A DNA stretch of 43,081 nucleotides from Phycisphaerae bacterium (GTDB taxonomy: Bacteria; Planctomycetota; Phycisphaerae; UBA1845): the NCBI GenBank assembly GCA_013360585.1, contig JABWBH010000044.1, positions 1-43,081 of the forward strand, written 5' to 3'. Both the position numbers and the translations under genes were made by a program. Under the pieces are notes generated by a model. That model did no database searches, had not been told where the DNA came from, and saw only the letters and a program-made list of their open reading frames with translations. How positions within the stretch are numbered: position 1 is the first letter of the stretch; every line of letters begins with the position of its first letter. Positions 1 to 39,819 of this stretch are shown piece after piece.

Positions 1-128
1 TGACGATGGTGTTCCGCCTGGTGCAGTGCGCCCAGGATCACTGGCGGGCGCTGAACGGATCAGGCCTGCTGGGAGAGGTGATCGGAGGCATTCAGTTCGC
101 CAATGGACTCAGGATGGACGCCGCCTGA
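1..128 (+). CDS. IS256-family transposase, C-terminal fragment (cut by window edge)
   Basis: The reading frame enters at the left edge and ends at a TGA at 126-128. The last 41 residues include MVFRLVQCAQDHWRALNG and a GEVIGGIQF stretch, which match the usual tail of Mutator/IS256-type DDE transposases (MVF.L.Q.A...WR.L followed by L..VI.G..F.DG). The catalytic part lies outside the window, so activity cannot be judged. The family call rests on recognition of a short tail; another IS256-like subgroup is possible. Confidence 0.6.
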   Translation, partial: TMVFRLVQCAQDHWRALNGSGLLGEVIGGIQFANGLRMDAA

Positions 129-161
129 AACAGGACCGTCCACAGGATTTGACAATACCTC
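1..161 (+). mobile_element. right end of an IS256-type insertion sequence
   Basis: The transposase stop at 128 is followed by a short stretch (138-161) holding CCACAGGATTTGACAATACC. This resembles the terminal inverted repeats of many IS256-family elements, which often contain a TTTGACA-like core. The matching left end would lie before the window, so neither the exact boundary nor the target duplication can be confirmed. Immediately outside this end lies a fragment resembling the esterase gene found at 2075-3436. Confidence 0.45.
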
Positions 162-200
162 GCCTCCCTGCACGACCTCGACTCAGGCGGGATCGCACTC

Positions 201-272
201 CGCCGCCGCCTCCCGGCAGCACCAGCAGCCGTCGATAGCCGTCCTTCGGCGGGACGGCCGCCCCACCGCCCC
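201..272 (-). pseudogene. 72-bp scrap of an esterase gene, near copy of 2659-2730
   Basis: This segment matches 2659-2730 inside the alpha/beta hydrolase gene at 68 of 72 positions, in the same orientation. Read on the minus strand it gives GGAAVPPKDGYRRLLVLPGG, against GGAAVPPKDGYRLLLVLPGG in the intact gene. Similarity falls off on both sides, within about 40 bp of the insertion-sequence end. It looks like the remnant of a paralogous hydrolase truncated by the insertion or a nearby rearrangement. There is no start codon or full domain. Confidence 0.55.
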
Positions 273-365
273 ACCAAAACCAAGCCTCCCAAATCCCAGA
301 ACTGTCGCCTTCGGTTGGAGTTCCCGGTAGACGAATAGAATCCTCGTCGTTTCAGGTATTCATCA

Positions 366-1310
366 TCACTTCGATGGCAAACCGGATGTCGTTGCAGCGG
401 AATTCCACGTGAATGATGGGAAACCCGGCGCGGAACTCAAAACACGCTCGCCCGTCGGCACTCCAAGCGAGTCCCACTTGAACACATAATCTGGAACCGA
501 CGCATTCAAACGCAAATTCACGACTTCAAACTCGTCGGCCCAATCCAGCTTCCCGTTTCGGAACTGTTCATGTCGACCCTTTCTGGGGAACCAGACCGTG
601 TCGAATAACTCCAGCACATTGACTCCTTTGACTGTGAAGACAAGGTCAGGCTTCTCAGCCTCTTCAGAACGATGCCGCGTTTCGTAACCGTACTCTACGA
701 CGGCATGATCGCGCGAAGGGTCAATAATGAACCAAACCTTGAAAGACAGTGTATCCGACGAATTCCGCGCCAGGTCGATTCTAATCAGTCCCGATTCCAA
801 CACTTCAAACCTCTGAACGTCGTAGTCGAGAAAAAAGCCATCCTCTGGATTGGTCTGCGGTCCGCCATACTTGGGGAGCCCGAGAGTTTTCACGTTGAAC
901 AGTCTCACATCGGCAGGGGCAGGATGTTCCGATTGTCGAAAAAGATAACGGCTTGAGTTTCTGATTTTATTCAGCACTGCACCGCTTTCATTCCAGATGG
1001 ACACCTCCAGCGGCTCTCCCGACAATCGACTGTCCGGTCCGTACATCATTACCTTGAAAGGGTGGTCAACGACATCGACTCTATATTTGTCGCCACTCCA
1101 AGTCGCTCGCGTCTTTACCTTGCTGAGTTCGGGTTTCCCTGGACGGATAAGCGTCCAGTGAACTTCCGCCTCTCCAGCATGCAGCAAGGACCGCTGTGCG
1201 CCCGAAGCCCGCAGGTAATCTTTCGCGCAATCAGATTCACCCGTTGCGCAACCGGAAATAACAAGCAGCATCGCGAACATCGCCATCTGAATGCCCCCTG
1301 ATCTGGACAT
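366..1310 (-). CDS. predicted lipoprotein, unknown function (LolA-like features)
   Basis: A 314-residue protein with a lipoprotein signal peptide: a short n-region with Arg3, a hydrophobic stretch, and the lipobox LVISGC with Cys21. The body is beta-rich with charged and aromatic strands (TWSGDKYRVDV, DGFFLDYDVQRFEV) and ends with a strand-turn pattern (LRLNASVPDYVF) of the kind seen in planctomycete proteins with a LolA/outer-membrane-lipoprotein-sorting-like fold. That fold call is a guess from pattern. The start at 1310 is kept because it supplies the positive n-region. An ATG eight codons later has a better upstream GGGGG but lacks that charge. No enzyme motif is seen. It is co-directional with the small Cys-rich gene upstream. 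Confidence 0.75.
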   Translation of the reverse strand: MSRSGGIQMAMFAMLLVISGCATGESDCAKDYLRASGAQRSLLHAGEAEVHWTLIRPGKPELSKVKTRATWSGDKYRVDVVDHPFKVMMYGPDSRLSGEPLEVSIWNESGAVLNKIRNSSRYLFRQSEHPAPADVRLFNVKTLGLPKYGGPQTNPEDGFFLDYDVQRFEVLESGLIRIDLARNSSDTLSFKVWFIIDPSRDHAVVEYGYETRHRSEEAEKPDLVFTVKGVNVLELFDTVWFPRKGRHEQFRNGKLDWADEFEVVNLRLNASVPDYVFKWDSLGVPTGERVLSSAPGFPSFTWNSAATTSGLPSK

Positions 1311-1521
1311 GAACCTTTAGTTATCCCAAGCCGCTCAAGACTTAGCCAACGTCAGAACGTGCATCTCGGTCACCTCAGAAGGCGCCGGGACGCCGTCGAT
1401 ACCCTGCGGTTTTTTAAGATGGAGGACAAAGCGCTGTTTCCCTGGTAAACCCGTTTCCGTTGCTTCCGGTTGCGACGTCATTCGCGCAATGCCCACCGTT
1501 AGGCTCCGTTGGTGAGGCCAC

Positions 1522-1803
1522 CTACTTGCATTCATACTCCGTCCAGCACGGGTTCAAGGGCGTCGAAATGCATTTTGTGTTCTGCTCGCTTGACATGCAG
1601 CCGGTCAGGATGACCTGGGCTTCAATCTCCACGGCGGGACCACATAGCCCGGCATTCGTGTATGTGCTGCATGGCGTGTCATACCCACCGCAATAAGATT
1701 CGCTGGCCGGATCCACCTTGCGTTTTTCGCATTCGTCGTCAGCAAACGGATGAGCCAAGTTGGTAGTGGAACTCCACAGCAGCGCCAGCAAGATTGAAAA
1801 CAT
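1522..1803 (-). CDS. small secreted Cys-rich protein (93 aa)
   Basis: The ATG at 1801-1803 is preceded by GGAGG at a 9-base spacing. The product begins MFSILLALLWSSTTNLAHPF, a short secretion signal, then carries eight cysteines in about 75 residues (ECEKR, YCGGYDTPCS, GLCGPAV, TGCMSS, TKCIST, NPCWTEYECK). This suggests a disulfide-stabilised exported peptide. I recognise no family. The frame stays open upstream through the AAGGG tract to an ATG at 1945-1947, which would add an N-terminus of SLPFP repeats. The GGAGG-preceded start is preferred, but both are possible (see findings). A promoter-like sequence lies at 1959-1986. Confidence 0.6.
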   Translation of the reverse strand: MFSILLALLWSSTTNLAHPFADDECEKRKVDPASESYCGGYDTPCSTYTNAGLCGPAVEIEAQVILTGCMSSEQNTKCISTPLNPCWTEYECK

Positions 1804-1817
1804 GAATTCAATCCTCC

Positions 1818-1912
1818 AAGGGAAGGGAAGGGAAGGGAAGGGAAGGGAAGGGAAGGGAAGGGAAGGGAAGGGAAGGGAAGGGAAGGGAAGGGAAGGGAAG
1901 GGAAGGGAAGGG
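1818..1912 (+). repeat. pentanucleotide tandem repeat (AAGGG)x19
   Basis: Nineteen perfect AAGGG units in tandem, 95 bp, with no interruption. On the coding strand of the adjacent small gene this is a CCCTT tract. It lies between a predicted promoter and the ribosome-binding site. The strand asymmetry (all purine against all pyrimidine) also makes triplex or G-quadruplex structure possible. Perfect pentamer tracts of this length are unstable by slippage. Confidence 0.97.
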
Positions 1913-1958
1913 GCCACAAGGCGCCTCCCGCCCTGCCCGAATCTCATCTCTGCCGTAC

Positions 1959-1986
1959 AGTATACAATATGGTATCGGACGGTCAA
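1959..1986 (-). promoter_or_regulatory. predicted sigma-70-type promoter of the small Cys-rich gene
   Basis: On the minus strand TTGACC (1981-1986) and TATACT (1959-1964) are separated by 16 bp, five of six matches to consensus in each box. The expected transcription start near 1952 would put the whole AAGGG/CCCTT tract inside the 5' leader. It would also leave the upstream in-frame ATG at 1947 only about five bases from the transcript start. Confidence 0.6.
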
Positions 1987-2074
1987 GGGACTTTTTTTCT
2001 TTTTTTCAATTCATACGCTTTTCGTCTGTTCCTTGAACCACGCCGCATTCTTCTTCCCAAGGCCCCCGAATTAA

Positions 2075-3436
2075 TCAACCACGGTCATCGGCACTGCCGC
2101 CCTTGACGGTCATCGTGTCCTCCAGCCACCGGATTCCGCTGCGGATGGCGCCAAAGATGTCGCCGTGCCAACCGTGTCCGCCTTCGTACCTGACGAGTTC
2201 GGCCCGGCCGCCGCCGCCTGCCACCGTGCGCACCGCCTCCTCCGCGAAGCGCATCGGGATGAAGTCCGTCGGAGAGTGCATCACGTAAACCGCCCGGTCT
2301 TTCACGTGCAAGTCAGGCATCTGCGCCGGTTTGAAGACGGACATCGCCACGAAGGCCCCGGTCAGCGGCGTCTGCGCGCGCAGCGCCGCGGCGTACACGG
2401 GCGGACCGCCGCTCGACCAGCCCATCGCGAAGACGTGTCGGGCGTCGATCGGCACGCGCTTCTTTACGTCGCGGACGACCGCCTCGATGAAGTCCTCCGT
2501 CGTGAACGTCATGCCCGGCGAAGGCAACCCCTTCGTCGGCCAGACGACCGACTCCTTCTGGGCCGCCGACCCCTGCGGCGCGACGAGCTGCGCGACAAGA
2601 TATCCCTCGGGCAACGCCTGCCGGGCGATGCTGCTCACGAAGGGCGCGAAGTCCGCGCCGCCGTCGCCTCCCGGAAGCACCAGCAGCAGTCGATATCCGT
2701 CCTTCGGCGGGACGGCCGCCCCACCGCCCCGATGCAGCAGGTAACGCTGCTCCGAGCGGCCTTCCGCGCGCAAGTCCTCGAACGCTGCCGCCTTGTCGGA
2801 AGCGGCCGAAGCCTTCCCCGCATCCCCGCCTTTTCCGGCCTGCGCGACGTCAGCCGTCCACGTTGCCTCCACGTCGTCGAACCAGACCGTGCCCGGTCCG
2901 TAAATCTGAAGCGCGACGCGGACGCGGTGCGTGTCTTCCGGGATGTCGACCTCACCCGAGTATTCGCGCCAGTTGTGGGTCACGGGCGGATCCTGCGGCC
3001 CTTCCGCACCGATGTAGGCCGCCCACTGATGCGACCACGCGTCGCCCGGACCGAGGAACTGGACGTCAATCACCGCCTTCGTCAAAGCGTCAGCTTTCAC
3101 CTGCGCCCGGACGCGCAGTCCGCGCGCACCGCCGTCATGTCGCAGCTCCTGATACCACTCCGTCGGCGGGATGTAGCGTTCGACGGTTTTTCGAAGGCGA
3201 AGGCTCGAACCTCCTTTGTGCCCGGTCCCGCGGTCCCAGGCGAACTCGACGCCCGGCACGGTCATGCCGCGCTGCCACGCCTGCGGGTCTGACTTGCCTT
3301 CCTCCGCGCCCGCGTTGGCCAGCAGGTTCCCCCCCGCCGTCACCGGGGCTTGCTGACGCGCAGCCGAAGCGGCAAGGACGGGCACGGTCAGAATGAACAC
3401 AAATCCTGCACATGCATGAAACGTCGCTGTCATCAT
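2075..3436 (-). CDS. secreted alpha/beta hydrolase (esterase-like) with N-terminal CBM-like domain
   Basis: A 453-residue exported protein. Residues 1-25 form a signal peptide ending near LAASA. Residues 35-190 resemble the beta-sandwich carbohydrate-binding-like domains that begin NLLANAGAEEG and end with WFDDVE. The C-terminal half is an alpha/beta hydrolase of the phospholipase/carboxylesterase or PHB-depolymerase-like type: LLLVLPGGDGG for the oxyanion region, nucleophile elbow GWSSGG near residue 340, an Asp in SPTDFIP near 390, and His in GGHGWHG near 420. The triad looks complete. The substrate is unknown; an ester on a polysaccharide or a short-chain ester is plausible. AGGAG precedes the paired start ATGs. 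A 72-bp near copy of part of this gene lies at 201-272. Confidence 0.85.
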   Translation of the reverse strand: MMTATFHACAGFVFILTVPVLAASAARQQAPVTAGGNLLANAGAEEGKSDPQAWQRGMTVPGVEFAWDRGTGHKGGSSLRLRKTVERYIPPTEWYQELRHDGGARGLRVRAQVKADALTKAVIDVQFLGPGDAWSHQWAAYIGAEGPQDPPVTHNWREYSGEVDIPEDTHRVRVALQIYGPGTVWFDDVEATWTADVAQAGKGGDAGKASAASDKAAAFEDLRAEGRSEQRYLLHRGGGAAVPPKDGYRLLLVLPGGDGGADFAPFVSSIARQALPEGYLVAQLVAPQGSAAQKESVVWPTKGLPSPGMTFTTEDFIEAVVRDVKKRVPIDARHVFAMGWSSGGPPVYAAALRAQTPLTGAFVAMSVFKPAQMPDLHVKDRAVYVMHSPTDFIPMRFAEEAVRTVAGGGGRAELVRYEGGHGWHGDIFGAIRSGIRWLEDTMTVKGGSADDRG

Positions 3437-3608
3437 CGCCGGCTCCTGTCATTGCGAAAAAGGACGCTCTTTTTACGCTTCAGAACCGCGCCGCGCCGCA
3501 ATCCTTGACGGTTCGTGCTCTGAATTGTTAGAAATGCGTCGTTGCCGCCGCGTCAAGGCGGAGGGCGACGCGGGCTCGAACGACCGCATGAAAGCACCCG
3601 GGAGGGAT

Positions 3609-3634
3609 TCGCCCGGGCGAGTTGAATATTCAAC
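3609..3634. promoter_or_regulatory. two adjacent perfect palindromes upstream of the FlgI-like gene
   Basis: TCGCCCGGGCGA (3609-3620) is a perfect 12-bp palindrome. It is followed without a gap by GTTGAATATTCAAC (3621-3634), a perfect 14-bp palindrome. They lie about 85 bp before the FlgI-like start. Perfect dyads of this size are typical of operators for dimeric regulators, but no regulator is encoded nearby, so the role is inferred. Confidence 0.4.
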
Positions 3635-3719
3635 CCGCTACCGGGTGCGCCGGCATCGTTCATACATCCCCGGTCAGGGTCGAGATCGAGTCCGGCGGGA
3701 TCACCAGCGGAAAAACAGC

Positions 3720-5573
3720 ATGACGACACGATGCAAGCCGCGCCCCGACCGCGGGCGCCGCGGTCCGGCGCGATGCGCGCAGGGTTCCGAGATCAACCAG
3801 AACCGACGACAAGGTTGCGGACGTGGGCAGCGACGGGGTTTATGCCCGTCGGCCGCAGTCGTCGGGATGATGCTGCTTTCGATGGCCGGATGTGCCTGGG
3901 AGACGCGCGACCCGCGCCGGCGGGATCTGGGGGTTGCGCCGAAGTCCGCGGAGGGCGCAGGCTCGGCAAGCTTCCGCGACACGATCGGCGAACTGGCGAC
4001 CTTTCACGGTCTTGCGCCGATGAAGGTCCAGGGTTACGGACTGGTCATCGGCCTGGGCGACCGGGGATCGACGGAGTGCCCACCGCAGATCCTCAACCGC
4101 CTTGCGCAGCAGATCGAGAAACGTTACCCACTGCGCAGCAACCGGGTGGGGATGGTGAGTCTGACCCCCGAGCGCCTGATCCGCGATCCGGATACCGCCG
4201 TCGTTCTCGTCGAGGGGATGATCCCCGCAGCGATGACGAAGGGGTCCACGTTTGACGTTTACGTGTCCGCTGTCCCCAACACCGGCGTGAAGTCGCTGCG
4301 CGGCGGGCGCCTGTACTCCTGCGAACTGGAGTACGCGGTTCAGATGAGCACGCCGACTGAGCGCGTCAACGTCTTGTCGGGGCGTTCGCTGGCGGAGGCC
4401 GCCGGTCCGCTCTTTCTCAACCCTTTCGTGGAAGAGGGCGAGGGCGGGACGCAGACGGATCCGACCCAGGCTTTTGTGCTGGGGGGCGGGCGCGTGCTCG
4501 AGGACCGCCGCCTTCGCCTCGTGCTGACCGAGCCTTCCGCCAGCACCGCGATGCGCATCGAGAACCGCATTAATGCGAAGTTCGGCGGCGGCGGAAAGAT
4601 CGCCGACGCCCTCTCGCCGACGTTCATTCAGCTTTCGATCCCGGACATTTACCGCGACGAACCCGGACATTTCATGCTCCTCGTGCGGCATCTTTTCCTC
4701 CCGGATCATGACGGATTCGTCGCCCAGCGCTGCCGCGATCTGGCGGCGGAACTCGTTCAACCGGACGCGCCGCACGCCGCGATCTCCGTCGCGTTCGAGG
4801 GCGTGGGTCTGCCGGCGATGCCGGTGCTGACCGAGTTGTATGCGCATAAGAAAGACTACGTGGCGTTCCACGCCGCCGCCGCGGGCCTGCGCCTCGGCGA
4901 CGACGTGGCCGTCACCGCACTCGCCCGAGTCGCGGAAGATCAGACGAGCCTTCTGCGTTTTCAGGCGATCCGCGCCCTGGCGACGAACCCGAAACTGCGA
5001 TCCCCCCTGGCGCCGCTGCGGAAGCTGCTTGACGACGTCGATCCTCGCGTCCGCATCGAGGCCTACGAGGCGCTGGTCAAGCTCGAAGATCCGATGATCG
5101 AGCGGAACATCGTGGGCGACGACAACTTCATTCTCGACTGCGTGCCCGGCGCGCAGTCGCCGATCATTTACGCAAGGCGAACACAGGAGCGGCGGATCGC
5201 TCTGCTCGGAGACAACGTCGAATGTCGCTCGCCGATCTTCTACCGGGCGCCGGACGGCGCGCTGATGATCAACGCCGACGCCGGCGCGGAAAGCCTGACG
5301 CTGCTGCGGACCGTCCCGCATACCGGCAGCACATCCCCGCCCGTGCCCGCCTCACCGGAGGTGGCGCGGCTGGTACGCATGCTCGGCAATGACGTTCAGC
5401 AGGTGCAGGGGCGCGTTACGGGTCTGGGGCTGGATTACACGGCCATCGTTCACGCCCTGCACACCCTCTGCGCAGAGCACGCGATCAATGCCCAGTTTAT
5501 CTTTGAGGAGGAGAACCTCGCCGAACTCTTCGGCCCGCGAGAGCGCTCGGGCAGGCCGGAATCCGAACTGTAA
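3720..5573 (+). CDS. FlgI-like (flagellar P-ring fold) lipoprotein with C-terminal helical repeats
   Basis: From the ATG at 3720 the product has 617 residues. An unusually long basic n-region precedes the lipobox LSMAGC (Cys58), so it should be lipidated. Residues about 80-340 resemble FlgI: VQGYGLVIGLG, the strongly conserved SLRGG near residue 192, and alternating beta strands. FlgI itself forms the periplasmic P-ring. Here residues about 368-460 add HEAT-like helices (LLRFQAIRALATNP, VDPRVRIEAYEALVKLE), followed by a further beta-rich part of about 150 residues. No flagellar gene adjoins it, and true FlgI has a cleaved signal, not a lipid anchor, and no such extension. A non-flagellar ring or scaffold role is inferred. 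The frame is open further upstream, and the weak SD leaves the start uncertain. Confidence 0.75.
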   Translation: MTTRCKPRPDRGRRGPARCAQGSEINQNRRQGCGRGQRRGLCPSAAVVGMMLLSMAGCAWETRDPRRRDLGVAPKSAEGAGSASFRDTIGELATFHGLAPMKVQGYGLVIGLGDRGSTECPPQILNRLAQQIEKRYPLRSNRVGMVSLTPERLIRDPDTAVVLVEGMIPAAMTKGSTFDVYVSAVPNTGVKSLRGGRLYSCELEYAVQMSTPTERVNVLSGRSLAEAAGPLFLNPFVEEGEGGTQTDPTQAFVLGGGRVLEDRRLRLVLTEPSASTAMRIENRINAKFGGGGKIADALSPTFIQLSIPDIYRDEPGHFMLLVRHLFLPDHDGFVAQRCRDLAAELVQPDAPHAAISVAFEGVGLPAMPVLTELYAHKKDYVAFHAAAAGLRLGDDVAVTALARVAEDQTSLLRFQAIRALATNPKLRSPLAPLRKLLDDVDPRVRIEAYEALVKLEDPMIERNIVGDDNFILDCVPGAQSPIIYARRTQERRIALLGDNVECRSPIFYRAPDGALMINADAGAESLTLLRTVPHTGSTSPPVPASPEVARLVRMLGNDVQQVQGRVTGLGLDYTAIVHALHTLCAEHAINAQFIFEEENLAELFGPRERSGRPESEL

Positions 5574-5762: not shown

Positions 5763-7235
5763 TCATCCGCCCTCCGTGGATGTAACAGCGGGTGCGGCCG
5801 GCGGATCGGCGTCCGCATCTCCCGCGCGGATCGTGGAAGCATCGAGAAACGCCGCCACGGCGAGCGCCGCCACCTCATGACCCGCCGGGCTGAAGTGATC
5901 GTCATACGTGAAGTAAACCTGCACGCCGGTCGCCGCGGCGCGCCGCAAAGGCTCGGTCAGGCTCAGGAAAGGAATGCCGCTTTCCGCGCAGAACTCGCGC
6001 GTCAACGTTTCTTTCACATCAAGTCCCGCCAGCAGCCGCTGCACGAATTCCGCGGGCGGCGGCAACTCCTCCTTGGCGCGAAGCATTGCAAAATCACGCA
6101 CCGTCGCGGCGGGCAATTCGCCGGCGATCGGCAGAACGACGTGAGGCTTGCTCGGAGCGTAGATCAGGCAGAACTTCGCCCCCGCCGTGTCACACCGCTC
6201 CTTCATGCGGAGGACAAGCGTCCGGATCGCCTCCCACGGCTCGGAGACCTCGACCGACTCCCGGGGCTGATAAAGATCGAGCATCAGGTTCGGCGCAAAG
6301 GCATAAGACTTCGCCGACGGACCCTCCGGCGCCCGCAGCGGCATCCACGCCAGCGCCTCGCCTCCGCGGATCGGACCGTCGGCGTTGATCCGACCGAGCG
6401 TGCCGACGATCGCCGCGTCGAGGCGCTGCAGGAGCGGCGACTGCTTGAAGAACTTGCTGAATTCCGACTCCGGCTCCTCTCGAAGCTCCGCCGCGCGGAA
6501 GTCATTCTCCTCGTACAACAGGCACACAACGATCTGCGGCTTCAGCGACAGCCCCACCTCTTCCAGCGAGGCCAGATAATTCTGCGGCGCGTACCCCGAC
6601 ATGCCGAGGTTGTACACGGTGCGGCCGGTCACCCCGGCGAGGCGCGCGGGCCACGGATGCTCATCCGAAACCTTCGATCCTTCGGCGTACGAATCCCCGA
6701 GCACAACGATGTCATACTGCGGGAGGTCCGTCGCGTTGCGGAACCCGCGACGATCACAGGTCAGCGTCGCCGCAAAATCCGGGAACCCCGGCGGGACCAC
6801 TTCGTATGAGCGCGTCGCCTCGGGAAGATCGCGCACGATCAACTCGTCCGCGCCGACTTCAGGAGCGCGGAACCCGGGGGGGCGGTGATACGCCAGCGTG
6901 TCCTTGATGTAGTACTCCGGCGCGCCCCGCCGAAGCACGAGATCGACGGCGCACGTAGGAAGGAAGACAACCCCGCACGCCGCCCCCACCCCCAGCAGTC
7001 GCCGACGACGGCCTCGCGGAGTCGCCCCCGTCCCGACGACGAGCACTCCTGCGGAGATCAGCGCCACCCCGATGATCCACGTAAAGTGCTCCCGGGAATA
7101 ACGCCCCAGCAGTACGTGACGGTCACGGGCCACCAGCGTCGCCACGTCGCGGGGAATCAACCACAGCCCAAGATTGACCCCCGCCGCGATCACCGCCAGC
7201 AGGATCCTGCGAACCCTCAACTCGCGTTGCGTCAT
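5763..7235 (-). CDS. membrane-anchored SGNH/GDSL-hydrolase-like protein (AlgX/AlgJ-like)
   Basis: A 490-residue protein from the ATG at 7233-7235, which has AAGGA seven bases upstream. Longer starts lack a good site. The N-terminal 110 residues contain about three membrane segments (ILLAVIAAGVNLGLWLI, FTWIIGVALISAGVLVV, then one near VFLPTCAVDLVL). The rest is SGNH-like: block I VLGDSYAEG near residue 180, NLGMSGYAPQNY with the conserved Gly, EENDF as an Asn/Asp block, and a C-terminal DDHFSPAGH with the Asp-His pair near 445. Such proteins O-acylate or deacylate polysaccharides at the envelope. The acceptor is unknown and no acyl donor protein (MBOAT) gene adjoins. Converges with the FlgI-like gene. 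Confidence 0.75.
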   Translation of the reverse strand: MTQRELRVRRILLAVIAAGVNLGLWLIPRDVATLVARDRHVLLGRYSREHFTWIIGVALISAGVLVVGTGATPRGRRRRLLGVGAACGVVFLPTCAVDLVLRRGAPEYYIKDTLAYHRPPGFRAPEVGADELIVRDLPEATRSYEVVPPGFPDFAATLTCDRRGFRNATDLPQYDIVVLGDSYAEGSKVSDEHPWPARLAGVTGRTVYNLGMSGYAPQNYLASLEEVGLSLKPQIVVCLLYEENDFRAAELREEPESEFSKFFKQSPLLQRLDAAIVGTLGRINADGPIRGGEALAWMPLRAPEGPSAKSYAFAPNLMLDLYQPRESVEVSEPWEAIRTLVLRMKERCDTAGAKFCLIYAPSKPHVVLPIAGELPAATVRDFAMLRAKEELPPPAEFVQRLLAGLDVKETLTREFCAESGIPFLSLTEPLRRAAATGVQVYFTYDDHFSPAGHEVAALAVAAFLDASTIRAGDADADPPAAPAVTSTEGG

Positions 7236-16305: not shown

Positions 16306-16550
16306 CCGTTTGAAAGTGCCGCTGCGTCACGCTCGACGTTTCGCTTGGCGCCGCGCTCGAGGTTGCGCTCGACGCCGGGTGCATGTTGTCCTCGGCACCG
16401 CGCTCAATGTTGCGCTCGACGCGGCGCTCGATGTTCGCTGGTCGCTGCGGCGGGGTGGCATGGCCTGGCGTACTCGCCTGGCCATGCTGGAGGAGTAAAA
16501 CGCCCGCGCCTCCAGCGGGCGCGACGGGCGCTCTTGTGGATCGGGCGCGC
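16306..16550 (+). repeat. composite repeat: period-12 array plus hairpin, copy 1
   Basis: It starts with GTGCCGCTGCGTCACGCTCG and continues as about nine degenerate 12-bp units based on GCGCTCGATGTT (16327-16440). Next come a GGGTGGCATGGCCTGGCG hairpin (16459-16486), GGAGGAGTAAAACGCCCG, and a GC-rich end. The same order of parts recurs at 39352-39590 in the same orientation. No credible coding frame runs through it. Confidence 0.75.
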
Positions 16551-31673: not shown

Positions 31674-32576
31674 CTACTCCCCCACCCACGAGAGCGTGTA
31701 CTCCACCGGTTCCGCGTCGCTCACCGTCACCAGCACCACGCCCGTCGACGGCGACTCCTCGGTGAACGTGATCGTCACCAGCACCGTCAGGTCGCCCACC
31801 CCCGTCGGAAGCTCGAACGACGCCGTCCCCTCCTCCGGGATCAGGTTCCCGTGCTCCTGCGGATCCATCACCAGTTCGTCCACCGACACGACATACGCCG
31901 TGTCGTCGTTGTCCACCAGCGTGAACTGCCCGTCCGTCAGCGTGATCTCTCCGTCGCTTGACGAAATGAACACCGTCACCGTCCCGACGATCAGCCCGTT
32001 GTCCGTTTCAAGGTCCACCGAAGCCTCGATCGCGAAGGGAAGCTGGTCCGACGGCCGGCTCAGCAGTGTCGCGCTGAGCGTCCCGTCCACCGTCGATTCA
32101 TCCACCGAAAACGCCTCAAACGTGATCTCGACGGTCAGCGCTTCCGCGTCCACCACCGCTGTCACCTGCCCGGAAACCGTCGCGTCTCCGTAATACTCAT
32201 TCGTGCAGCCGTCGCCGTAATCCAGTCCGATCGTCCACGTCGTCCCGTCCCGCGACGCCGAAACCACCGGGCATGTCCCAAACGACGCCGAATCCGTCGG
32301 GTAACTCTCCGGGTTCGCCATCTCCTTCAGCCCCGAGAACGCCGCCGCAAGATCGTTCAGCAGCAGCGTCACGGCCTCGACCGCCGCTTCCTGCTCGGCG
32401 GTCAAACCGTCGCCGTCTCCGTCGTCATTGTCGTTGACGTTGCCGTCCGTATTGTCGTTGACGTTGCCCGACGGCGTGTTGTCGTTCCCGTTGCCGCCGC
32501 CCGGCGCGCAACCCGCGCCCCCCAGAACGCCCACCAGCCCGACGCAGCACAAGCTCATCCACCGACTCAGCATCAT
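31674..32576 (-). CDS. lipoprotein with N/D-rich linker
   Basis: A 300-residue lipoprotein. GGAGG precedes the paired ATGs. The signal ends with lipobox LGGAGC (Cys23), then a linker of GNVNDNTDGNVNDNDDGDGD type, which is frequent in planctomycete lipoproteins and probably binds calcium or spaces the domain from the membrane. The remainder is an acidic beta-rich domain of repeated strands (LTVEITFEAFSVDES, GLIVGTVTVFISSSDGEI, DLTVLVTITFTEESP) with two cysteines (GTCPV, DGCTN). No enzymatic motif is visible. A strong terminator follows. The acidic composition stands out from its basic neighbours. Confidence 0.8.
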   Translation of the reverse strand: MMLSRWMSLCCVGLVGVLGGAGCAPGGGNGNDNTPSGNVNDNTDGNVNDNDDGDGDGLTAEQEAAVEAVTLLLNDLAAAFSGLKEMANPESYPTDSASFGTCPVVSASRDGTTWTIGLDYGDGCTNEYYGDATVSGQVTAVVDAEALTVEITFEAFSVDESTVDGTLSATLLSRPSDQLPFAIEASVDLETDNGLIVGTVTVFISSSDGEITLTDGQFTLVDNDDTAYVVSVDELVMDPQEHGNLIPEEGTASFELPTGVGDLTVLVTITFTEESPSTGVVLVTVSDAEPVEYTLSWVGE

Positions 32577-39264: not shown

Positions 39265-39819
39265 GGCGACCGAACCGTCCTGGCGCCTCCTGCTGGCCCC
39301 GGTGGCGGTTCAGCGGTATCTCAGCGGCGTCTCGGCAGCAGTTCAGCGTCGTCTCATTTTGAGAGCGCCGCTGCGCCACGCTCGATGGTGCGCTCGACGC
39401 CGCGCTCAATATTGCGCTCGAAGATGCCCTCAATCTTGTGCTCGATGACGCGCTCGATGCTCGCTGATCCCTGCGACGGGGGTGGCATGGCCTGGCTGGC
39501 GTACTCGCCTGGCCATGCCGGAGGAGCAGAACGCCCGTTCCTCGCCGGACACGGGTCCGCTGCTGCGGATCCGCGCCACCCGACATGCCGGCAGATCTCA
39601 GAACGCGTTTGCCCCGGGCGAAGGGAAGGGATTGCATGATCACGTCGTGCGCCTTCATCTCAATCCTGAAGGGATAGCGGCCTCCAGCCCAAGGTTGGAC
39701 GCCGCGACCCGGTTAGCGTCGCGCGGCAGGCGTCGTACACGGGGCGAAATACGGGATGGGTAGAGGCGAGCACGAGATACAGCCGGTCATGCGCCGCCGG
39801 CGCCAGCTTTGGAGGATGA
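39265..39819. other. 555-bp repeat field without a supported gene
   Basis: Between the EF-G gene and the ATPase fragment lie the second composite period-12 plus hairpin element (39352-39590) and a further repeat-like tract (about 39636-39760). The latter carries CTCAATCCTGAAGGGATAGC and CCAGCCCAAGGTTGG, which resemble a common planctomycete intergenic repeat as I remember it. No frame in it has a start with a ribosome-binding site and a plausible product. Confidence 0.55.
39352..39590 (+). repeat. composite repeat: period-12 array plus hairpin, copy 2
   Basis: It begins GAGAGCGCCGCTGCGCCACG and holds eight degenerate 12-bp units of GCGCTCGATGNT type (39378-39465). A GGGTGGCATGGCCTGGC hairpin (39486-39517, with four extra bases in the stem) follows, then GGAGGAGCAGAACGCCCG and a GC-rich end. 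It has the same order and orientation as copy 1 at 16306-16550. Confidence 0.75.

Follow-up and report, generated by a model that had tools for sequence, protein, structure and literature searches.

The window, meaning the whole stretch of 43,081 nucleotides analysed, contains a perfect pentamer tract upstream of a small gene on the minus strand. The original prediction had described 19 uninterrupted AAGGG units, a TTGACC-16-TATACT promoter upstream of them, a GGAGG-ATG just 3′ of them and a small secreted Cys-rich protein as the product. All of these were found. The 19 units are perfect (1818-1912), the promoter is sigma-70-like and lies on the minus strand, GGAGG (1813-1817) is followed by the start codon (1801-1803) with the spacing GGAGG-N9-ATG, and the product, which begins with what looks by eye like a signal sequence, contains 8 Cys among its 93 residues. 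The features of the locus are as follows, n being the number of pentamer units.

366 to 1310, minus strand: second gene, encoding a 314-aa protein, exported and lipoprotein-like by eye
1414 to 1521, minus strand: remnant resembling the C-terminal coding part of the ortholog, beyond the in-frame stop
1522 to 1803, minus strand: gene encoding a small Cys-rich exported protein of 93 aa, stop codon counted; the ortholog has 129 aa
1813 to 1817, minus strand: Shine-Dalgarno-like (SD-like) GGAGG, directly 3′ of the tract in mRNA sense
1818 to 1912, minus strand: perfect pentamer tract, (CCCTT)19 in mRNA sense, equal to (AAGGG)19 on the forward strand
1913 to 1952, minus strand: presumed transcribed leader, from the expected start site (placed about 7 nt past the -10) to the tract
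1923 to 1939, minus strand: G-rich leader core CGGGCAGGGCGGGAGGC, conserved in type A cassettes
1945 to 1947, minus strand: upstream ATG, in frame with the window gene at n = 19
1959 to 1964, minus strand: -10 hexamer TATACT, spacer 16
1981 to 1986, minus strand: TTGACC, the -35 hexamer of the cassette promoter; the conserved spacer element GTCCGAT comes next

A 20-base pattern, searched with at most 3 mismatches, gave 16 overlapping matches, all within the tract, against 0.02 expected per shuffled window. The promoter (1986 to 1959, minus strand) was the top of three promoter-like matches in positions 1-3600, shuffles of which gave a mean of 0.9 (sd 0.9). Positions 1400-2200 had no match in Rfam up to E 1. 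The window copy of the small-protein gene is probably truncated, since an in-frame stop ends the ORF at codon 93, compared with 129 codons in the ortholog from a sister genome. The AlphaFold model of the small protein was unusable (mean pLDDT 40.5). The 314-aa protein is 34% identical to the second-gene product behind a paralogous cassette (C74:41229) and belongs to a different family from the 460-560-aa second genes behind other cassettes. Elsewhere in the window, a 682-aa ORF (3525-5573) has a middle part resembling a flagellar P-ring protein (FlgI-like) by eye, and imperfect repeats with a 24-bp period (16330-16439, 32419-32496 and 39374-39459) probably lie in coding DNA.

Searching the genome that contains the window (G000; 4.24 Mb in 84 contigs) by pattern revealed 14 CCCTT tracts of four or more units (n = 6-19), which exactly sum to the 105 overlapping 4-unit matches found. 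These are located on contigs C3, C4, C29 (two), C48, C73, C74 (two), C75 (four), C76 and C82. All 14 are in the CCCTT orientation toward the gene and stand behind one common promoter, TTGACcGtCCGAT-N8-gGTAtatT, with the tract 3′ of the -35 and -10 elements in 14/14 cases (the start site being predicted). A G-rich leader is present in 13 of the 14 cassettes; its usual form is CGGGCAGGGCGGRAGGC-N-CC-CGT-GGT and it abuts the first CCCTT. This multi-copy arrangement with its dedicated promoter is apparent only outside the window and so lay beyond the view of the original prediction. With up to 2 mismatches allowed, the promoter pattern matched G000 at 13 sites, of which 12 are cassettes and the other lies on C54, and a reversed-pattern control gave 0 matches. 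The promoter pattern missed the window and C4 copies, whose spacers are shorter, but a leader model caught both. Perfect simple sequence repeats of 20 nt or more numbered 14 in 161.6 kb of G000 DNA, a sample chosen around the tracts, and all were the CCCTT pentamer. Likewise, G-free runs of at least 30 nt with at least 40% C numbered 14 at tracts and 3 elsewhere, in 416 kb of strands from a sample also chosen around the tracts.

Four cassette copies look decayed. C75:8851 has lost its leader and kept its promoter, (CCCTT)10 and a full ORF. In C75:6299 (6299-6506) about 100 nt are inserted between the -10 and the leader, and the ORF is pseudopilin-like by eye rather than a small Cys-rich protein. 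The other two, G001:C152 and G003:C15, come from sister genomes and have interrupted tracts; at the latter, an exported ORF was not seen within 220 nt. As a separate observation, a run of 22 C at G000:C54:43720-43741 lies upstream of a promoter-like site (by eye), and the exported-protein-family gene there is broken. The ortholog of this locus on G001:C9 (stretch L092, 4726-4740) has 15 C and an intact gene.

Readable genes stand behind 33 cassettes, 14 from G000, 11 from G001, 3 from G002 and 5 from G003. Two G001 tracts at contig ends (C50 and C175:4605) were left out of this set, as were G001:C152, G001:C17, G002:C22 and G003:C15, which have fewer than 3 perfect units or are cut by a contig end. 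Across the 33, n ranges from 4 to 19. A script that looked for ORF starts only behind the tract found an ORF of at least 60 codons starting within 170 nt in 33/33 cases (31 ATG, 2 GTG); the distance from tract to start is 13-86 nt, with an SD-like sequence in most by eye. The genes fall into many sequence clusters and mostly encode small, exported, Cys-rich proteins, while 6/33 cassettes precede longer proteins. Thirty six small proteins were compared (27 from behind cassettes, 8 from related gene pairs without a tract and one from a G002 gene with two full units) and formed 11 BLASTP clusters, 8 of them behind cassettes, so that the small proteins behind cassettes represent at least 8 clusters. 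With these clusters and the longer proteins behind the same element, the common part of the system is the regulatory part. An alignment of 23 small proteins (A3) contains several common Cys columns, and some of the BLASTP clusters may be distantly related. In one pair, like mature domains stand behind different N-termini (G000:C75:694 vs G001:C22). Searches of Pfam and NCBIfam gave no match over cut-off (10 proteins each), and a PDB sequence search gave none.

Several cassettes are followed by a second gene of about 460-560 codons. Moreover, pairs of small-protein and second genes occur without a tract in other genera (e.g. G031, G024, G005 and G033), and members of the same families lacking the tract were found both in the genus and beyond (14 homologues checked, two of those in G000 being cut by a contig end). 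The tract is thus not needed for the genes as such. Judged from the tract-less pairs in other genera, the gene arrangement seems to be the older part, to which one genus later added the tract.

Among the genomes searched, the cassette is confined to one planctomycete genus, represented by G000 and three sister species that also carry it (G001, G002 and G003). Tracts of five units or more were found in 5 of 60 genomes (relatives plus own), which are the four of the genus and G018. Phylum-wide, tracts of six units or more were found in 3 of 392 genomes, namely G000 plus two others that each have one tract in a different context. No cassette was found in the flanks of about 120-160 nt around the G018, G348 and G456 tracts. 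In viral contigs the leader pattern gave 0 matches and a 7-unit tract pattern gave 3. The metagenome-assembled genome Planctomycetota bacterium BroJett003 has a contig identical to a G001 contig.

Leaders were modelled as two types and searched for, with stricter filters, in 51 genomes of the family. The type A model (R1) was built from 20 of 25 leaders from G000, G001 and G002, leaving out one leader with an insertion and four near-duplicates, and the type B model (R2) from 5 of 6 leaders, type B occurring in G003 and G001. Strong type A matches came from genus genomes only (15 in G000, 12 in G001, 4 in G002 and 1 in G003 when weak matches are included). Strong type B matches came from G003 (5) and G001 (2), with weak ones in G003, G000 and G063. 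Most matches in the genus are to the sequences from which the models were built, the exceptions being G003:C15, G002:C25, G002:C22, G001:C17 and G001:C152; the first four were matched by R1 at E < 1e-10, as sequences outside its training set. The 47 family genomes outside the genus gave only marginal matches to the leader models, in 3 genomes (two of type A, E 0.003 and 0.0099, and type B in G063, E 0.0098). Weak R1 matches in G066, G027 and G001:C12 were inspected and dropped as marginal, and weak R2 matches at G003:C6 and G000:C80 were dropped because they appear to be one piece of coding DNA that both genomes have. The site in G066, a genome of another genus, has a cassette-like promoter (TTGACCGCCCGAT...) and no tract (G066:C70:34118-34199, E 0.003), possibly by chance, and the ORF behind it is protein-kinase-like by eye. 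In G003:C56 (L063, 4048-10025) three units lie 2969 bp apart, each with a type B leader and n = 8, and two of the three have identical small-protein and second genes.

Repeat number was compared with the sister genomes, as the original prediction had proposed, and differs at 5/6 orthologous tracts, the equal one being an 8/8 pair. The G000/G001 pairs are 19/12 (window), 15/12, 8/8, 11/8 and 10/6 and the G000/G002 pair is 9/8, all taken from metagenome assemblies, which may misjudge long tracts. Identity over 400 nt downstream is 87-94% in the five G001 pairs and 73% in the G002 pair; across the 77 nt just ahead of the tract it is 82-99% in the G001 pairs and 60% in the G002 pair (C3). Collinearity with G001 is strong at three loci: it covers 4.2 kb at 92% for the window, 1.6 kb at 92% for C29:3808, and 7.5 kb on one side and 1.6 kb on the other for C74. 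It is weaker for C29:1396 (0.73 kb at 84%); the G002 pair is collinear for about 1 kb at 72%, and the C76 pairing depends on two G001 contigs, each of which stops at the tract. The change of n at 5/6 orthologs speaks for slippage, which we infer to be the cause of the differences. Some G001 contigs end inside a CCCTT tract (C50, C53, C87 and C175) or inside a leader (C17), and such ends at tracts fit either true heterogeneity or plain assembly difficulty. A 2.43-kb unit of cassette and operon present in G000:C74 (L014, 7512-9940) is absent at the orthologous G001 site (L051, 4220-4242).

The original prediction had further stated that an ATG at 1947 is in frame with the window gene and that the frame is open through the tract, which is true at n = 19, and had likened the locus to an Opa-type frame switch. 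Of the 33 cassettes, two lack upstream sequence; among the remaining 31, an ATG that is in frame and open lies within 60 nt before the tract in just 4, and in 9/31 there is such a start when GTG and TTG are counted too. Any ATG at all is found within these 60 nt in 24/31 and none in 7/31. The in-frame placing of the window's upstream ATG is not conserved among cassettes. In the ortholog of the window gene, the corresponding ATG lies out of frame and runs into a stop, although a GTG there is in frame and open. By these counts, switching of the reading frame does not characterise the cassette system in general. Of the wider proposal of phase variation, the tract's place in a presumed leader and its evolving length (19 vs 12 in the sister genome) stand; the Opa-like branch is poorly supported, and the other branch, a change of leader length or structure, may hold.

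A dedicated promoter, a common leader and a tract kept before dissimilar genes argue for a regulatory role. The reading that we favour, at slightly short of an even chance, is a multi-locus contingency cassette that would tune expression via the transcribed 5′ leader, with Rho loading as the favoured step. The proposed unit is one dedicated sigma-70-like promoter with a short G-rich leader and a slippery (CCCTT)n, standing before 14 genes or operons that mostly encode exported proteins, and replication slippage would alter n. Promoter and start codons place the tract in presumptive 5′ untranslated RNA; n would then be expected to alter expression stepwise after initiation, and not via the frame. 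Taken together, the cassettes look like a means of tuning the expression of many genes, and not like a switch of one reading frame.

Rho prefers C-rich, G-poor, unpaired RNA. The tract RNA, G-free, about 60% C and 20-95 nt long, could serve as its loading site: long tracts would lead to termination in the leader, and short ones would let RNA polymerase pass. The G-free runs at the tracts measure 25-96 nt with 52-63% C, and G000 has two matches over cut-off to the Rho RNA-binding domain PF07497, one of them partial. Rho is favoured on account of this RNA composition, the Rho gene and a precedent in Clostridioides difficile, where Rho acting in the 5′ leader is reported to decide the phase-variable expression of a flagellar switch (PMC7446863). 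Our confidence in n-dependent loading, as a detail, is low. We infer that the tract is transcribed, that n affects expression and that Rho is the reader. A more specific version, that of a phase-variation regulon on slippable Rho-loading sites, seems doubtful; in it each extra pentamer would lengthen the C-rich RNA and raise the chance of premature termination, giving every cell a random profile of its exported set.

RNA folding was considered as another route by which n might act. In folds of 29 of the 33 cassettes, predicted SD accessibility changes little beyond n = 8, which weakens the case for n-dependent SD masking. Yet 11/33 cassettes have n of 6 or less, and short tracts shift predicted accessibility in some of the folded cassettes (in C29:3808 it falls from 0.64 to 0.28 between n = 4 and n = 8). 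A short-tract structural effect would be a mechanism distinct from Rho. Three folds show pairing between the leader and the first two or three units, and two of these also show the last units paired near the SD, all other units being unpaired; RNAalifold pairs GGRAGG with the first tract units. A special leader-tract hairpin was set aside, as complementarity is no better than for shuffled leaders (25 distinct leaders, z -1.7 to +0.7, 23 negative). Covariation is hardly demonstrable here, since the tract side is nearly invariant.

The alternative that survives best, rather unlikely in our view, is a passive microsatellite that arose once in the leader and was duplicated with the genes, with slippage varying n and expression unaffected. 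Slippage alone does account for perfect cores and varying n, several copies have upstream DNA in common and look like recent duplicates (the G003:C56 units included), and related genes manage without the tract. However, a tract is present at 12/13 promoter-pattern matches in G000, and even copies that have diverged strongly (window, C3, C4 and C48) retain it. Upkeep where a gene is present is also hinted at by a single case, the orphan leader G003:C15 with its interrupted tract.

The dedicated promoter and common leader point to a regulon, and could belong to a fixed leader element in which CCUU units dock an RNA-binding protein (of S1, Csp or CsrA type), length variation being noise. The TAACTGA repeats before start codons in Beggiatoaceae have been interpreted likewise (PMC4679880). 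A range of n from 4 to 19 across 33 cassettes is, however, wide for a fixed site, and we regard this explanation as unlikely.

Decidedly unlikely is a hot spot of DNA structure, in which a G-quadruplex (G4) or triplex formed by the template-strand (GGGAA)n would promote recombination among exported-protein genes, in the manner described for pilin and the pilE G4. The pilE G4 reportedly lies upstream of the promoter, whereas the CCCTT tract lies downstream of its own. AAGGG repeats can reportedly form triplex DNA. They have also been described as forming G4 and stalling replication (PMC10954463). The 2.43-kb unit in G000:C74 that is absent from the orthologous G001 site would suit such recombination, as would like leaders before dissimilar genes and like mature domains after different N-termini, but silent donor copies or an expression site were not recognised, and the leaders of the window and its ortholog retain a character of their own. 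Lastly, an Opa-type translational switch, in which gain or loss of units would shift an upstream start in or out of frame, is most improbable: the ATG at 1947 and the 9/31 cassettes with a usable upstream start are outweighed by the 4/31 with an in-frame open ATG, the 7/31 without any ATG, the out-of-frame equivalent at the window's ortholog and ORF starts behind the tract in 33/33.

In bacteria, the occurrence of long simple repeats has been associated with dependence on eukaryotic hosts (PMC4060949). The system proposed here would be a multi-locus contingency-type repeat system in a planctomycete genus, with one promoter common to dissimilar genes that mostly encode exported proteins. No report of planctomycete phase variation was found in the portion of the literature covered by searches on phase variation with simple sequence, pentanucleotide or CCCTT repeats. 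If n sets expression, the cassettes would act as a natural randomiser of the exported protein set, and would also provide a natural repeat-length series for testing how leader repeats act.

In Neisseria, the opa genes carry (CTCTT)n in the coding region, where it switches the reading frame of exported proteins at multiple loci. The cassette is like opa in its pyrimidine pentamer and its many loci for exported proteins, but the opa repeat is inside the coding frame, whereas the cassette gene's own start lies behind the tract (33/33). In the vlhA genes of Mycoplasma gallisepticum, too, many exported-protein genes each have a variable repeat with conserved flanks, and n varies among orthologs (PMC6258824). 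However, the GAA tract of vlhA precedes the transcription start by about 40 nt, whereas the CCCTT tract lies between promoter and start codon, and vlhA is one gene family, whereas the cassette genes fall into several clusters that BLASTP does not connect, some of them perhaps distantly related. Marine Beggiatoaceae offer the nearest case of one kind of repeat before many start codons: their TAACTGA direct repeats are proposed to act post-transcriptionally (PMC4679880). The Orange Guaymas genome is reported to have 169 such sets of 2-6 copies, without pattern in the downstream functions (PMC4679880). The parts of that paper covered describe no common promoter or leader, whereas the cassette has both, and describe canonical ribosome binding sites as rare in the TAACTGA genome, whereas SD-like sequences lie behind the tract in the cassettes (PMC4679880). 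The C. difficile switch differs in being an inversion with a recombinase (PMC7446863), the variable here being repeat number.

The fourth repeat system compared, uspA2 of Moraxella catarrhalis, is one in which the number of AGAT repeats is reported to shift the mRNA level in a graded way (PMC7302503). As there, a tandem repeat lies upstream of an exported-protein ORF and outside its frame, and the features of this type seen here are a perfect repeat between promoter and start codon and an n that varies among relatives; the effect of the repeat on expression is here presumed. The uspA2 system is one locus with a tetranucleotide, whereas the cassette occupies 14 loci with one promoter and a pentamer, 13 of them with the leader. 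The cassette lacks a defining feature of opa (a repeat in the coding frame) and one of vlhA (a repeat upstream of the promoter). As far as its working can be judged, it appears to resemble uspA2 in that working, and vlhA and opa in multi-locus layout.
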